Shown piece after piece: positions 37,623-45,490 of a stretch of DNA of 48,249 nucleotides. The notes under the pieces were generated by a model. It was not told the origin of the DNA, searched no databases, and saw nothing but the letters and a program-made list of their open reading frames with translations. This DNA is from a virus, in the IMG/VR virus record IMGVR_UViG_3300021090_000003, positions 1 to 48,249 of that record; one strand, written 5' to 3'. Numbering within the stretch: position 1 is the stretch's first letter; the number at the start of each line of letters is the position of its first letter. The position numbers and the translations under genes were made by a program.

Positions 37623-37927
37623 CGCAGTGGATCATCTGGGGCTTCCTGCTGATTTTGCAGAACGCCGCCCACACGGCCACCAGCCGAGCGCGCAACTCCA
37701 AGGGCGCTGCGGGGCTCTGGTACAACGGCGTGGCCTCCATCTTCTCCAACGGGATATGGTTCGCGTCGCAGTTCTTCATCGTCAATATGCTGATAAACGT
37801 GAAGGACAAGCCGGTGGCGTTCGCCGGCACACTGGTTTTCTACATCCTGCTGACGGCCCTCGGGTCTGTTGGCGCCCACTGGCTTGCAATGCGCCTGGAG
37901 CGCAAAGGAAAGATCGAACATGGTTAA
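37619..37927 (+). CDS. Membrane protein with three spans, 102 aa
   Basis: Hydrophobic segments at about 4-18, 38-58 and 70-92 (WIIWGFLLILQNAAHTA; IWFASQFFIVNMLI; TLVFYILLTALGSVGAHW). It lies in the nucleotide-metabolism end of the replication unit, not in the lysis cassette. Resembles short phage membrane proteins encoded near MazG or nucleotide genes. Unknown role. Confidence 0.6.
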   Translation: MTQWIIWGFLLILQNAAHTATSRARNSKGAAGLWYNGVASIFSNGIWFASQFFIVNMLINVKDKPVAFAGTLVFYILLTALGSVGAHWLAMRLERKGKIEHG

Positions 37928-38576
37928 GCTGACCCTCCCCACCGACTCGACCGAACGCAAGAACGTCCCGATCCTGTCTGGCGTCATGAACTACTTCCCG
38001 GCGGCCCTGGCCGGTGTGGCGCGCATTTCCGTCGCCGGCAACAACAAGCACAACGCCGATCAGCCCCTGCACCATGCTCGGGGCAAGTCGATGGACCACG
38101 GCGATTGCATCATCCGCCACACGATGGACCTGGAAGATTTGAGGGCGCTGATGGTGCGGCAGGAAAAGTTCATGGACGCGGACCAGGCGGCGAGCGTCAT
38201 CAAACTGCTGCTGGAAGAAGCCCGCTGTCGCGCCTGGCGCGCTCTGGCTGATCTCCAGGAGTTGGAGGAAATCTACGGCGGTGCGCCGCTCGCGCCAGGC
38301 GCACGGCTGCCGGAAACGCAGCAAGATGCGGAACCGGATCGCTGCCAGGCTCGTGCAGATGGCTACGAACGGTGCCAGTTATCCGTCAGCCACAAGAGCG
38401 ATCACCTGTTTCCGGCCGCTGGCGGGCTGCGTCACGTCAACGAAGCCCAGACTGTACCGATGGCGAGCGCGGTAGCGCTGACGGCGTATCAGATCAAAGA
38501 GCAGCGAGCGGAGCGTGCGATGCGTAGCAGAGTTGAAGGCGAAAAGGTGCCGGCAGGACCGGACACCGGCAGATGA
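37920..38576 (+). CDS. DUF5664-type dNTP diphosphohydrolase-like protein, 218 aa
   Basis: The first 110 residues follow the phage pattern DSTERKNVPILSGVMNYFPAA...GNNKHN...MDHGDCIIRH, which I associate with the all-alpha dATP/dGTP diphosphohydrolase-like family DUF5664. The rest includes a Cys/His segment (RCQARADGYERCQLSVSHKSDH) that may bind zinc. With the MazG-like enzyme it forms a nucleotide-editing pair. The family call is from memory; no purZ is present. Last gene of the rightward unit. Confidence 0.6.
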   Translation: MVKLTLPTDSTERKNVPILSGVMNYFPAALAGVARISVAGNNKHNADQPLHHARGKSMDHGDCIIRHTMDLEDLRALMVRQEKFMDADQAASVIKLLLEEARCRAWRALADLQELEEIYGGAPLAPGARLPETQQDAEPDRCQARADGYERCQLSVSHKSDHLFPAAGGLRHVNEAQTVPMASAVALTAYQIKEQRAERAMRSRVEGEKVPAGPDTGR

Positions 38577-38581
38577 AACCC

Positions 38582-38608
38582 AGCGCCCGGACCTTCAGTC
38601 CGGGCGCT
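38582..38608. terminator. Hairpin between convergent units
   Basis: AGCGCCCGGA (38582-38591), loop of 7, TCCGGGCGCT (38599-38608). Perfect 10-bp GC-rich stem, symmetric for both strands. U-tracts are short (TTTACCTT on the plus strand, GGGTTTC on the minus), so termination may be bidirectional but incomplete. Confidence 0.6.
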
Positions 38609-39008
38609 TTACCTTGACCCCATGCTTCCGGCAGATTGCCCGGAACCCCTCGTAAGGCACCAATCGCCACCCGTGTAGGATCGCGCCGTAGTACCAGGCG
38701 AACGTCGGGCCGTGATCCTGGGCTTTCGGGTACTTCGACCAGGTGAAGTGATGGGCCAGTTCGTGCGCCAGGATAAGCCCGTTGCGGCCACTCTTCGGGT
38801 CGAGCTGGATAGCCCCTCGGTCGTGATCGTAGGACGCGCCGAAGCCGCGGACGGCCCAGACCCGGATCGTCACCGGCGGAACGCCGTAGACCCGGCAGGC
38901 GGCCCGCACCAGCCGGCGAATCTTCTTGAGCGGCAACAGGTGTGCGCGATGGCCGCGCAGCTCCTGCCGCTCCATTTCGTAGACGCGCTCTTTCTGCGCG
39001 TCCGCCAC
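38595..39008 (-). CDS. SprT-like HExxH metallopeptidase, 137 aa
   Basis: Zinc site HELAHH with a further ligand in DHGPTF (HxG-x2-F), the arrangement of SprT-like proteases. The rest is basic, in keeping with a DNA-associated enzyme; SprT-like proteases in other systems remove proteins bound to DNA. The start was set at GTG 39008, coupled to the upstream stop (TAGTG), though an ATG a few residues later is possible. Last gene of the late unit; a phage-borne SprT-like protease is unusual. Confidence 0.7.
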   Translation of the reverse strand: MADAQKERVYEMERQELRGHRAHLLPLKKIRRLVRAACRVYGVPPVTIRVWAVRGFGASYDHDRGAIQLDPKSGRNGLILAHELAHHFTWSKYPKAQDHGPTFAWYYGAILHGWRLVPYEGFRAICRKHGVKVKRPD

Positions 39009-40600
39009 TATTCGAGTCTCCAGCGGCCATTGATGACGTTCAGCAGGCTGCGCTTGCCGTTGCCGTATATGACCGTATGGGCGTTCAGCCACGACGACGG
39101 CCCAGAGTTGTACCCCAGGCGCAGGCGCGTGCTGGTGCCGTTCTGGTAGCCGCCCTCGTCGATCCCTGGGCTATGACTGTGGCCGACGATGACTTTCACG
39201 CCGATCCGGCGCAGATTCTTCAGCGATCCGCGAGCCCCATTCGGCCCCTTGTCGCCGTGCAGGCCAGTTTCGATGCCCGCGACCACATGGCTTTCGTCGT
39301 TCGCCAGGCACTTCACGTCCGGGCGCGAGCCCAGGATACGCGCCACCCAGTAGGTGAAGGCCGATAGCTTCTCGGCATTCGCATCCTTGGACTTGGCCTG
39401 GCGCACCATCGCCAGGGCCGATTCCAGGTAAAACTCTGCATTCGTGGCATCCTGGCGCCAGTCGGTGGCGATCAGGTATCGGGTCAGGAAATCGTCATGG
39501 TTGCTCGGGACGACGACCGACAACCGGCCGCCCTTCGTGCGCGCGTCCAGGAAGGCGACAGCGCGCTGCACTTCGGCCTCGGCATTGTCCATGCCGAACT
39601 GGCGCTTGTGGACGCCCAGGAACGGGTTGCCGCGGTGGTGCGGGTTGATGCTATCGCCGTCCAGCAGGTCGTGCCAGATCAGCTCTGCGGGGTTCAGCAG
39701 GTCGACGATACCGCCTTTGCCGAACGTCGCGCGGTCGACGGCCGGGTCCACCGCGTCAACGTGCGTATCACCCATATCCAGGGCCAGGGCGCGCGGCGCA
39801 GGGGCGTAGCCTTTCTTGGCCCAGTCGATGCCGTAGTACGTGTCCAGGTCGATGAAGGCGCCCGTCTTGCTCTCGGCGTTGATCTGGCGGATATGGAACT
39901 CGCGCCCACGGATTTCGACCATGCAGGCGCCCAGGGTGTGATGGAACTCGCCCAGCTTGCCGGCGCGGCTATCGGTGTAGTTGGGCTTCGTGCAGGCGCC
40001 GGTGGTGGTCATGATCTTGGGCAGCTTGCCCGAGGGGACCGGCACCGTGCGCAGTTGCAGCTTCGTGTGGCCGAAGATCGCCGATTCGCCGTGCGTAAGG
40101 CCATCGAACCCGGTCAGCGGGTTGGAGGCCGTGGGCTGAATCTTCGCGTCGCCGACGACGTGCAGGTTCTGGTTCAGCGCCTTGCGCGTATTCCAGAGGT
40201 ACGGGCTGACCTCGGGTGCCCAGGTTTCCTCGTTCTTCTGGCTCGCAGACCAACTACTGGTCGGGTTCTTGTACCGCAGCGGGATCACCAGGATTTCGGC
40301 GCTATGCTTGTTTGCGGCCACTTCCAGGGCGTTCACGAAGCCCTTATGCACCGGCGTTGCGTTCTGAGCTGCCGTGACAAGGAACCTTTCGACCTTGCCG
40401 AGCGTTCGCTTGAATATGGGCGCTTTACTAGACCGCTTCCCCGCACGATCCGTCGCCGGTGTCCCCGGGTTGGTGGTCGAGAAACAGTACGTCTTGTGGC
40501 TACCAGAGTACGTCGAGCACTCCCAGCGGCGCTTGCCGCTCTGGGCCATCGACCCTTTGACCATGTTCTTACCGCATTTCGGGCAGGCGTGGTTCGGCAT
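39008..40600 (-). CDS. Metallophosphoesterase with N-terminal zinc ribbon, 530 aa
   Basis: N-terminal zinc ribbon (Cys 6, 9, 28, 39). Metallophosphoesterase motifs: GDTH (277-280), HD (310-311), SNHDD (366-370) and GHSHS (473-477). The layout resembles the T5 A1-type proteins, which combine this domain with other parts and take part in early DNA transfer or degradation, but I cannot prove homology. It follows the spanin genes by 7 bp and precedes the metallopeptidase with a TAGTG overlap. Confidence 0.7.
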   Translation of the reverse strand: MPNHACPKCGKNMVKGSMAQSGKRRWECSTYSGSHKTYCFSTTNPGTPATDRAGKRSSKAPIFKRTLGKVERFLVTAAQNATPVHKGFVNALEVAANKHSAEILVIPLRYKNPTSSWSASQKNEETWAPEVSPYLWNTRKALNQNLHVVGDAKIQPTASNPLTGFDGLTHGESAIFGHTKLQLRTVPVPSGKLPKIMTTTGACTKPNYTDSRAGKLGEFHHTLGACMVEIRGREFHIRQINAESKTGAFIDLDTYYGIDWAKKGYAPAPRALALDMGDTHVDAVDPAVDRATFGKGGIVDLLNPAELIWHDLLDGDSINPHHRGNPFLGVHKRQFGMDNAEAEVQRAVAFLDARTKGGRLSVVVPSNHDDFLTRYLIATDWRQDATNAEFYLESALAMVRQAKSKDANAEKLSAFTYWVARILGSRPDVKCLANDESHVVAGIETGLHGDKGPNGARGSLKNLRRIGVKVIVGHSHSPGIDEGGYQNGTSTRLRLGYNSGPSSWLNAHTVIYGNGKRSLLNVINGRWRLE

Positions 40601-40607
40601 ATTTGTT

Positions 40608-40898
40608 CTACTTGATGGAGCGGAGTTCGGTCAGTTGGCCGCGGCAGACGGCAAGGGCCTCTTCCACCGCCGCGAGTCGGCGCAGCACCGTTTCCACGGG
40701 CAGCGGGCCGGTGCTGGATACGTCAAAGCGTGGTTCGCAGTCCAGCGTCAGCCGCGGGTCGATTGGCGTCCGCACTGGGACCGGCACCTCGATTGTCCGA
40801 TCCTGGTAGAGCACCGGCGCGGAAGCGCACCCCGTCAGCATAGCCAGGGCAGATGCCAAGATCAGCGCGGAGAAGGGCTTCACAGTCGGGGAGTGCAT
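40608..40898 (-). CDS. o-spanin (Rz1-like) lipoprotein, 96 aa
   Basis: Signal sequence with a lipobox (FSALILASALAMLTGC) so that Cys can be lipid-anchored in the outer membrane, then a Pro/Val-rich region and a helical tail. It starts inside the Rz gene in another reading frame and extends beyond its end, the usual embedded spanin arrangement. Together with Rz it fuses inner and outer membranes at lysis. Confidence 0.8.
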   Translation of the reverse strand: MHSPTVKPFSALILASALAMLTGCASAPVLYQDRTIEVPVPVRTPIDPRLTLDCEPRFDVSSTGPLPVETVLRRLAAVEEALAVCRGQLTELRSIK

Positions 40899-41226
40899 GG
40901 TCGGTGTCCTCTTTGGCGCGCAGCAATGCGCGGGTGGTTGCAATCTGTTTCGCCAGGGTCGTTGCGCGCGCTGCCGCGGCGTCGAGCTGGGTCTTCTGGT
41001 CATCTGAAATCGCCTTGGCGGCCTTCGTCGCCGCGTCGCACTGAGCTGCAATGCGGTTGCTGACCACCAGCGTACCCGTGAGACTAGCGACTTGCTGGAC
41101 GGCAATCGCCTTTTCTGCTTTAAGGGTTTTGACCGTCTGGTGGCTGAACGCCAGAGCTGTTAACGACAGTAGAAGCGCTGTAGACAGGTACAGCAGGGGC
41201 GACCGGAGCAGGGTTGTCCACAGCAT
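40723..41226 (-). CDS. i-spanin (Rz-like), 167 aa
   Basis: N-terminal membrane anchor (LLYLSTALLLSLTALAF) followed by a long helical periplasmic coiled coil (TLKAEKAIAVQQVASL; LDAAAARATTLAKQIATTRALL). The Rz1 gene overlaps its 3' half in a different frame. Its start lies 107 bp inside the upstream 99-residue gene, so three proteins share overlapping DNA here. Confidence 0.8.
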   Translation of the reverse strand: MLWTTLLRSPLLYLSTALLLSLTALAFSHQTVKTLKAEKAIAVQQVASLTGTLVVSNRIAAQCDAATKAAKAISDDQKTQLDAAAARATTLAKQIATTRALLRAKEDTDHALPDCEALLRADLGICPGYADGVRFRAGALPGSDNRGAGPSADANRPAADAGLRTTL

Positions 41227-42697: not shown

Positions 42698-45490
42698 TCA
42701 AGGGTTAGTAATCGGTTGCGTGGGCTGCGTGAACGCCGACACGTATTTCGCATGGCCCTTCGTGATGCACATTTCGTCTACGTAGCCGATAAACCCGAAT
42801 CCGCCGCTCGGGTTGTCGCCGGCTACGCCGAACAACACGCGGCTCGGGGTCTCGTAGCTGTTGGCGTCAGTGTATGTGCTGCCCACTTGGGCGCCGTTGA
42901 CGAACATCTTAGTGCTGCCGTTGTACCGGCACACAACGACGTGATACCAGTTGTTGACCGCAATGGTGCTCGCTGCTGCTGTGATCCTGGCCGCGCCGTT
43001 TACATAGTAGATCAAATCCCCGCCGCCGGACGTGAAGATCGTCGGGCGCACTTGAGTACCCGATGTCCGCTGGTCGTAAATGAGCTGCGCAGCGCCGGTT
43101 AGGGTGGTCGGACGAATCCAGAACTCAATAGTGAAATCCCCGGTGCCGTAGCCGAAATCGGCATGCGCAGGCGTGTCGATGTACGAGTTCGCAGTCGGGT
43201 CTGTCATGCTGGCAGCGCCAAACTTGAACTGAGCCGTGCTGATTGTCGCCGTCCCGCTGGCGGTCCACGTCTTACCCGTCTCGTCGGTGAATGTCGTGCT
43301 GCCGTTTGAGCCTTCCATGTGCAGCAGCGAGACGATGGCACTGGTCACGTCCGGGTCGTCGAATTCGGCGCTCGGGGGCGTGAAGTTCGAAGTGTACAGG
43401 GCCGAAGTGGTGACGCGGAATTCGTCGATCCAGCCCGTCATACGGTTGGTGCCCGAGGGCGACGAGCCCAAGTAAATCGGGTTGCTGGCGAAGTTCGTCG
43501 TGTTGGACGCCGAGCCAATCGAAGTGCCGTCCACGAACAGGCGAATGGTGCTACCCGAGCGGCAGAGGGCGACGTGATACCAGGTGTCGTCTGCGGTCGT
43601 ACCGCCGAGGATTGGGTTACTGGACACGCCGTCGAACAACGCCCACTGGTTCGTGAAGGTGTAAACGGCCCAGCCGCCGCCGAAGCTGAACATGAAATTG
43701 TTGCCGCTGCGCGTGTCGTAACGGACCCAGCCTTCGATGGTAAAATCCGCCGTGCCGAAGATGAAGTCCGCGTCGGTCATGGAGACGACGTGATCGCCGG
43801 TGCCGTCGAGCAACAGGGACGACGTACCGAACTTGAACTGCGCCGTGTCGAGCTGCGCATCACCAGCGGTTGCCCAGCTCTTGCCGGTCATGTCGAGCAT
43901 GAGTGTAGTTGCGTCTACGCCGTTGAAGTGCAGCAATGCGACGACCGGAGGCGGCGGAACAACGGCTGTACGCTCCAGGTTAACCAGGAATTGGCGCACG
44001 GTGATGGTGTTGTCCGCGTCTGCGGTGCCCCATTGCGCAGTGAGAACGATGGACGTAACGGCGCTCAGATCGACGCTCACCGGCGCGGCGTTTGGCATGT
44101 GGACGATTGCCGCCGTCGTCGCGCCGGTGGAGAACGACGCCTTGGCCTGCGCTTCTACTTCCCCGCCGACTCCATCGTCTGTAACCATGATTTCCGCGTC
44201 CAGTTCCCAGCCGCGGTTGGTGAGGCTGCCGGTCGTCGTGAACGCCGTCGTGTCGGCAACCAAAGTGCTGTTGAGTTTCAGCTTGAGCCGCAAGGTCGGC
44301 GGCGTTGCGTCGGTGCCGTAAACGCCCTGTGCTTTCACCCGCAAAGCGGTGCCGGCGGTCAGGTCCGCCACAGCTACACTGTACGACGAGGCAAACGCGC
44401 TTTCGGTAACGGTGTTCGCCACCGTGTTGCCGACCGGCACGCTCGCGTCACCGTAAACCAGGGAGGATGCCGCCAGCACTGCCCATTGTGGGTTTGCGCC
44501 GGGGCCTCGGGTCTGGAGCACGTACAGGTCGGTGCCGGCGGGCAGACGCGCCCACGTCGCAGAGCCACGATACAGGATGTCGCCCTGCGCGGCCGAGCCT
44601 ACGAAGTCGAGCACCGCAGAAAGGGTCAGTTCCTCGCCGGCGCCGGCGCCGGTCGTGTCGCGGCCCATGATCCGGTCGGTGGTCGCGAAAGTGGTCGACG
44701 CCGGCGGGATCAGCCCGAACCCGAGCGAAGTACCAGAACGGCGCAGGACGAAATTGTCGGTGCCGGCGGCGATGTCCGCAGGGTCGCCAGTGCTGTTTGC
44801 GCTGCGGCCGATGACCGACAGGGCCGCGCTGTTGCGCAGCTTGCCGTCCGTGATCGCATCGTCGGCGACGCCAGCGGTCGCGACAGTGCCGAAGCCCACG
44901 GTGGCGCCAGAGCGGCGCAGCACATGGCCGTCCGAGGCTGCCAGGATGTCTGCCGGATCGCCGGTCGTGCTCGCGCTGCGGCCGATGACCGAGAGGCCAG
45001 CGCTGTCCCGCAGCTTGGCGTCGGTGACGGCGTTGTTGCTGATCGTGACGTTCAGCGTCGCGTTGCCGAGGTTCGTGAACGTCGTGTTGCCCGTTGCGTC
45101 GGTGCCCAGAGTGAGCACCGGCGACAGTGTGACCCAGACCAGATCAGTGCCGTCCGACCGCAGAAGCTGGTTGGCCGTGCCGCGCGCCAGTCGTTGGACC
45201 GTCGTCGCGCCGCGGACGTAGATGTCGCCGCGCGTCGTGAGCGTGTCTTTGCGCAGGTACTGGGGATGGTCGTCGCCGGCCGTCAACCCCTGGAGCAATT
45301 TGTGGTTCGTTGGGTTCGTAGCAGTGCTGGCTAGAGCGGAAGCCAGGTACACATTCAGCTTGGCAGCCGTCGCGAGCGAACCGTCCGACATAAGGAAATT
45401 GACGCCAATCTGTGCGCCTACAGTCGCGTCCTTCTCTATGAAGATGACGCGACCGATATTGTCCTGTAGCCGAACCTTACTCCGTGACAT
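42698..45490 (-). CDS. Tail fibre / receptor-binding protein with two LamG domains, 930 aa
   Basis: N-terminal attachment part with DDHPQYLR (73-80), then two about 50-residue repeats (about 153-203 and 211-259) sharing KLR-SA-LSVIGRSA and GDPADI, a beta-rich shaft, and two LamG-like domains (about 516-715 and 722-928), each ending in a D(E)-beta strand-NFTPP-type pattern. This is the likely main host-recognition protein. The LamG domains are related to the one at the end of the nozzle protein. It overlaps the 900-residue gene by 14 bp. Confidence 0.75.
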   Translation of the reverse strand: MSRSKVRLQDNIGRVIFIEKDATVGAQIGVNFLMSDGSLATAAKLNVYLASALASTATNPTNHKLLQGLTAGDDHPQYLRKDTLTTRGDIYVRGATTVQRLARGTANQLLRSDGTDLVWVTLSPVLTLGTDATGNTTFTNLGNATLNVTISNNAVTDAKLRDSAGLSVIGRSASTTGDPADILAASDGHVLRRSGATVGFGTVATAGVADDAITDGKLRNSAALSVIGRSANSTGDPADIAAGTDNFVLRRSGTSLGFGLIPPASTTFATTDRIMGRDTTGAGAGEELTLSAVLDFVGSAAQGDILYRGSATWARLPAGTDLYVLQTRGPGANPQWAVLAASSLVYGDASVPVGNTVANTVTESAFASSYSVAVADLTAGTALRVKAQGVYGTDATPPTLRLKLKLNSTLVADTTAFTTTGSLTNRGWELDAEIMVTDDGVGGEVEAQAKASFSTGATTAAIVHMPNAAPVSVDLSAVTSIVLTAQWGTADADNTITVRQFLVNLERTAVVPPPPVVALLHFNGVDATTLMLDMTGKSWATAGDAQLDTAQFKFGTSSLLLDGTGDHVVSMTDADFIFGTADFTIEGWVRYDTRSGNNFMFSFGGGWAVYTFTNQWALFDGVSSNPILGGTTADDTWYHVALCRSGSTIRLFVDGTSIGSASNTTNFASNPIYLGSSPSGTNRMTGWIDEFRVTTSALYTSNFTPPSAEFDDPDVTSAIVSLLHMEGSNGSTTFTDETGKTWTASGTATISTAQFKFGAASMTDPTANSYIDTPAHADFGYGTGDFTIEFWIRPTTLTGAAQLIYDQRTSGTQVRPTIFTSGGGDLIYYVNGAARITAAASTIAVNNWYHVVVCRYNGSTKMFVNGAQVGSTYTDANSYETPSRVLFGVAGDNPSGGFGFIGYVDEMCITKGHAKYVSAFTQPTQPITNP

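Follow-up and report, generated by a model that had tools for sequence, protein, structure and literature searches.

Do the two metal-dependent hydrolases at the end of this phage's late unit form a coupled system that acts on host nucleoprotein, or do they merely lie side by side? The window, which is the whole stretch of DNA analyzed here, is an entire IMG/VR record of 48,249 bases, and the record is probably near complete because its late unit exits the left end and seems to resume from the right end. The two genes lie on the minus strand at the terminus of the late gene block, and an early operon converges on them from the opposite strand. The first gene (39008–40600) encodes a T5 A1-family metallophosphoesterase of 530 amino acids and the second (38595–39008) a SprT-like zinc metallopeptidase of 137 amino acids. 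They overlap in a TAGTG (39006–39010, minus strand), in which the stop codon of the A1 gene (TAG, 39010–39008) runs into the start codon of the SprT-like gene (GTG, 39008–39006). A Shine-Dalgarno-like CTGGAG is found upstream of this GTG. The open reading frame lister picked a further upstream GTG at 39092, and the Shine-Dalgarno-like motif and the homologues favor 39008. A sequence-only reading had described the reading frames, coordinates and overlap in this way and placed the run just after the spanins, all of which held.

The run begins 7 nt after the stop of an Rz1-like outer spanin with an LTGC lipobox (40608 to about 40898, minus strand). The inner, Rz-like spanin (40723–41226, minus strand; PHROG 312, E 0.004) and a phage lysozyme (42032–42598, minus strand; Pfam Phage_lysozyme, E 2e-45) belong to the same late unit. 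Two other minus-strand genes can be mentioned. One (42698–45490) encodes a tail-fibre-like protein of 930 aa, which has two stretches resembling each other in its C-terminal part and matches several baseplate and structural PHROGs, and the other (59–1264), also in the late unit, encodes a candidate ejected protein with a match to PHROG 2534, described as "released from the phage upon host infection". On the other side of the junction, the final gene of the convergent early unit (37869–38576, plus strand) has a relative, L226:3188–3853, with a dATP/dGTP diphosphohydrolase N-terminal domain (PF18909), and the window gene may encode a nucleotide-pool enzyme beside the pair. Between the two units is a 12-bp GC-rich hairpin (38586–38612, minus strand; fold −27.4 kcal/mol, z −3.55) that contains the SprT-like stop codon and is a possible bidirectional terminator. 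The hairpin has no long T run and was missed by the T-run terminator scan; the scans for sigma-70 promoters and T-run terminators gave results at chance level.

The identity of the larger protein was examined at the level of profile, ligands and fold. Residues 54–528 aligned with positions 72–541 of the 542 in PHROG 1745 (T5 A1 "DNA transfer protein") at E 3e-148, which bore out the proposed likeness to T5 A1, and a tblastn search with the protein matched 1124 phage records. T5 A1 is of the same family over these residues with all phosphoesterase ligands kept, and the T5-like homologues compared are 28–29% identical to the window protein. The protein consists of a 4-Cys zinc ribbon (residues ~6–39), an A1-specific middle part (~60–265) and a calcineurin-like phosphoesterase domain (268–529). 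The ligands of the latter (D278, H280, D311, N367, H368, H448, H474 and H476) were invariant in an alignment of 12 diverse sequences and in one of 41 sequences, mostly from viral contigs and including the window. The motifs DxH, D, NHD, H and HxH were kept in the 41-sequence alignment, in which positions of the H448/H474 type, set apart from the other ligands, were also checked.

In the AlphaFold2 model of this protein (mean pLDDT 88.7), the VIA comparison found a calcineurin-like metallophosphoesterase fold for residues 268–529, with matches to YfcE (Z 12.6), PolD DP1 (Z 11.7), Mre11 (Z 11.6) and SbcD (Z 10.7), and also to LpxH and Vps29. The scores of nucleases and non-nucleases differed by no more than about 2 Z units. 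The modeled fold settles the superfamily and leaves the substrate unfixed, as YfcE, LpxH, Vps29, PolD DP1 and Mre11 score alike. The predicted zinc ribbon (CPKCGK..C..C) was found at residues 6–39; its weak profile matches were to 4-Cys zinc domains only, among them a transposase-type zinc-binding model (E 0.009). The ribbon is common to the roughly 18 closest A1 relatives on viral contigs, whereas more distant members in the 12-sequence comparison carry other, unrelated and often HTH-like, N-termini. A sequence search of the PDB gave no credible relative for this protein or for its SprT-like neighbor, and scanning viral contigs and phages with the single sequence of either one gave few matches.

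The smaller protein carries the HELAHH...HGP pattern at residues 82–101 (H82, E83, H86 and H99), as the HELAHH...HxG pattern of the earlier reading had implied. The HExxH motif and third histidine were invariant in 18 SprT-like sequences from the window and viral contigs; the third histidine was mostly in an HGPxF-like context, and most of the 18 had an N-terminal DPQxxxVYxxE-like motif. Key metal ligands are therefore kept in both alignments, of 41 A1 and 18 SprT-like sequences, although their loss had been named as a possible refutation. The window protein matched Pfam SprT-like (PF10263) at E 6e-4 with 20.1 bits, below the gathering score of 25.6, and all three members of set A2 matched it (best E 5e-5). 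Since the Pfam score alone is below the cut-off, membership was based on the family alignment together with the fold, and by these the protein is properly called SprT-like and not a curated PF10263 member. The AlphaFold2 model (pLDDT 92.6) had as its top VIA match the SprT domain of human Spartan (6MDX, Spartan residues 33–148; Z 7.3, rmsd 4.4 over 100 residues). Spartan was within 1 Z unit of minigluzincins and ArdC (Z 6.4), Wss1 scored Z 6.2, and no match reached Z 8; taken by itself, the fold match is therefore not decisive. Viral SprT-like models were among the matches of a BFVD search, and a scan of the genome contigs with the SprT-like protein gave no matches.

Compared to known SprT-like proteases of PF10263 (Spartan, Wss1, GCNA and bacterial SprT), the window protein has the same HExxH motif, the third histidine in H-G-P-x-F and, in its model, a core that aligns with the metalloprotease core of Spartan; the N-terminal DPQxxxVYxxE-like motif is its own feature. 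Spartan (SPRTN) differs in having a C-terminal zinc-binding subdomain and partner-binding motifs. The window protein, by its sequence and its AlphaFold2 model, has a helix with a basic tail at its C-terminus and no four-ligand zinc subdomain. An apparently related metalloprotease fold is found in ArdC of plasmid R388, an anti-restriction protein that binds ssDNA and has a SprT/Spartan-like domain. However, ArdC uses a glutamate as third ligand and has an N-terminal ssDNA-binding domain, whereas the window protein uses a histidine and has no N-terminal domain. In conjugation, ArdC was reported to exert its effect independently of its protease activity (PMC7213743). The window protein is basic (pI about 10.2); conserved basic charge was considered as evidence of DNA binding and rejected, as pI ranges from 5.3 to 10.3 across the SprT-like family.

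Is the pair more than a coincidence of one genome? An A1 gene was scored as paired when a SprT-like gene lay downstream of it in the same orientation, separated from it by no more than about one gene. By this definition, six independent contigs from three A1 lineages carry the pair (the window, L014, L024, L102, G008 and G009; L014 stands for two near-identical contigs), which answers the call for co-occurrence in relatives. The order is always A1 and then SprT-like, at or near the end of a late run, and the genes overlap in several cases. In L014, a small predicted membrane protein of 79–83 aa is encoded between the two (L014:7572–7811). Giant proteins of about 1400 aa are encoded directly upstream of the pair in two contigs (L024:195–4268 and L102:2–4345), with the polyvalent-protein domain LPD39, above cut-off in L024, and an HExxH-like stretch in L102; polyvalent proteins are thought to be injected together with DNA (PMC5512222).

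Most A1 genes and most SprT-like genes, on the other hand, stand apart from each other. On the A1 tree, paired genes occur at three places among solo A1 genes (solo being judged within the fetched neighborhood only), and no fewer than three switches between paired and solo are needed given its strongly supported branches. The SprT tree needs no fewer than two such switches. The pairing has thus been gained or lost repeatedly; a single ancient pair with many losses may still lie behind this pattern. Nine of 12 other A1 phages, including two T5-like phages, had no match to PF10263. In G036, G041, G042 and G043, the two genes are 6–9 kb apart in opposing operons: the SprT-like gene is the final gene after the lysis genes and faces a SNF2 helicase gene, and A1 in most of these genomes is among early replication genes. 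These solo genes and opposing operons led us to reject an obligate two-gene system. Of the coupled two-enzyme system proposed at the outset, the recurrent adjacency and fixed order are upheld and the obligate coupling is not; the two genes look like a loose partnership and not a fixed new machine.

SprT-like genes without an adjacent A1 are found in the head module, beside scaffold and capsid genes, in L101 (5968–6396), L104/L105 (L105:5953–6426), G026, G027, G029 and others; L167, L175 and L180 also have head-module copies. Such a location between scaffold and major capsid genes, seen in many relatives, would suit a protease that processes the scaffold or another virion protein. We consider this reading highly improbable; in the window, the gene is far from the head genes. 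As a general role, head maturation is disfavored, as no SprT-like gene could be detected in 18 of the 28 related genomes even though these carry the same capsid gene.

These 28 genomes also revealed what stands at the junction when A1 does not. A scan with the capsid protein yielded 80 related contigs, and 28 larger records were searched whole for A1, the SprT-like family and a further junction phosphoesterase. In most of the 28, the lysozyme gene at the late end and the SNF2 helicase gene at the early end face each other. The further enzyme, a phosphoesterase of ~358–466 aa with an N-terminal HTH in most cases, belongs to PHROG 704 ("DNA repair exonuclease") or PHROG 284 ("exonuclease"); its junction loci are L232, L223, L230, L231, L235 and L237–L239 (in G016, G007, G014, G015, G019, G021, G023 and G031). 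A1 was found in eight genomes, the PHROG 704/284 enzyme in 14, both in none and neither in six. This exclusion gave a Fisher p of 0.002, or 0.004 without the window and G002, in tests that, like all co-occurrence tests here, ignore phylogeny and record completeness (several of the 28 records may be incomplete). Both enzymes are found preferentially where the convergent early and late operons meet, and the replacement resembles A1 in its slot, its metallophosphoesterase motifs and its DNA-binding-type N-terminal domain. The two differ in that, besides never occurring together, they have no detectable profile similarity (hhalign probability 1.9).

The alternation suggests that the PHROG 704/284 enzyme serves a function of the same kind as A1. 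The simplest function for the two to share would be cleavage of DNA phosphoesters, since the replacement carries the annotation of a DNA exonuclease and both N-terminal domains are of a DNA-binding type. The same junction can also be viewed as a hotspot that collects cargo between the lysis genes and the SNF2 helicase gene, with A1 and the SprT-like protein doing separate jobs as unrelated accessory genes. This is a real possibility, if short of an even chance. The length of the junction ranges from about 1.8 to 10.5 kb between genomes, many unrelated small genes lie within it, A1 and SprT-like genes are apart in most genomes with the latter often between scaffold and capsid genes, and their co-presence in the 28 genomes gave p 0.09, or 0.33 without the window and G002, with phylogeny ignored. 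A chance gathering of cargo, however, accounts less readily for an order that is constant in three lineages, with overlap in several, or for G016, in which the replacement phosphoesterase is immediately followed by a SprT-like gene. Moreover, SprT-like genes were present in 10 of the 22 genomes with either phosphoesterase and in none of the six without (p 0.06).

The best explanation in our opinion, held tentatively, is that these are accessory late genes of an uncultured phage group, encoding a phosphoesterase that acts on DNA and can be replaced and, as an optional helper, a protease that cuts proteins bound to DNA. The A1-family protein would be a DNA-directed phosphodiesterase that is carried to DNA by its N-terminal domain and breaks down or inactivates the DNA or nucleoprotein of the host. 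The SprT-like protease would clip DNA-bound proteins, or one host protein, in the manner of Wss1 and of Spartan, a protease of DNA-protein crosslinks, and would aid the phosphoesterase without being required for its action. Because both genes are late here, the enzymes would work at a late stage of infection, or be packaged for delivery into the next host. Judged from the sequences, action on host nucleoprotein, as originally proposed, is plausible. Against this explanation, the modeled protease lacks the zinc-binding subdomain of Spartan, and Spartan is tied in Z with minigluzincins.

The role of A1 in host DNA degradation and second-step transfer is known for T5 only (PMC13250531, PMC8541194). 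T5 A1, a host-takeover protein, is reported to be essential for host DNA degradation (PMC13250531); according to a published summary, it binds RNA polymerase and no nuclease activity of it had been reported (PMC8541194). The T5 gene lies in the pre-early region, whereas the window gene is at the end of a late unit and is followed by a SprT-like gene.

A different role has been predicted for A1 orthologs, which were listed alongside phage enzymes that counter cyclic-nucleotide signals, and SprT-like phage proteases have been suggested to cleave varied host proteins (PMC7824862). The pair could accordingly serve in counter-defence, the phosphoesterase destroying cyclic-nucleotide alarm signals and the protease cleaving a host defence protein, and the patchy presence of the genes fits an arms-race role. 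Nevertheless, DNA-binding-type N-termini (the zinc ribbon here and the HTH in the replacement enzyme) suit DNA over small molecules, and a late gene position is late for such a role unless the proteins are packaged. A search of a defence-protein library gave no matches, which is weak evidence. On balance, we regard counter-defence as unlikely.

The preferred reading of a DNA-acting phosphoesterase with an optional protease can be extended to the whole group, whose members would then carry an exchangeable set of enzymes for clearing nucleoprotein: either of two unrelated phosphoesterases targeted to DNA and, optionally, a SprT-like protease that strips DNA-bound proteins in front of the phosphoesterase. 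As these are often late genes, the set would be packaged and enter the next host together with the DNA. In this full form the proposal is a long shot.

Neither enzyme family is new, and both enzymes are of known kinds. What is new is that the pairing recurs, that a ribbon-type A1 is encoded late, and that A1 and an exonuclease-type enzyme exclude each other. A literature search found no paper on an A1/SprT-like pair, and the alternation and recurrent pairing appear to be undescribed in the literature searched. That A1 alternates with a PHROG-annotated exonuclease-type phosphoesterase in this group points to A1 acting by cleaving phosphoesters, likely in DNA, and offers a direct swap test of A1 function. 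Furthermore, the recurring SprT-like neighbor is a candidate phage counterpart of the proteases that act on DNA-protein crosslinks.
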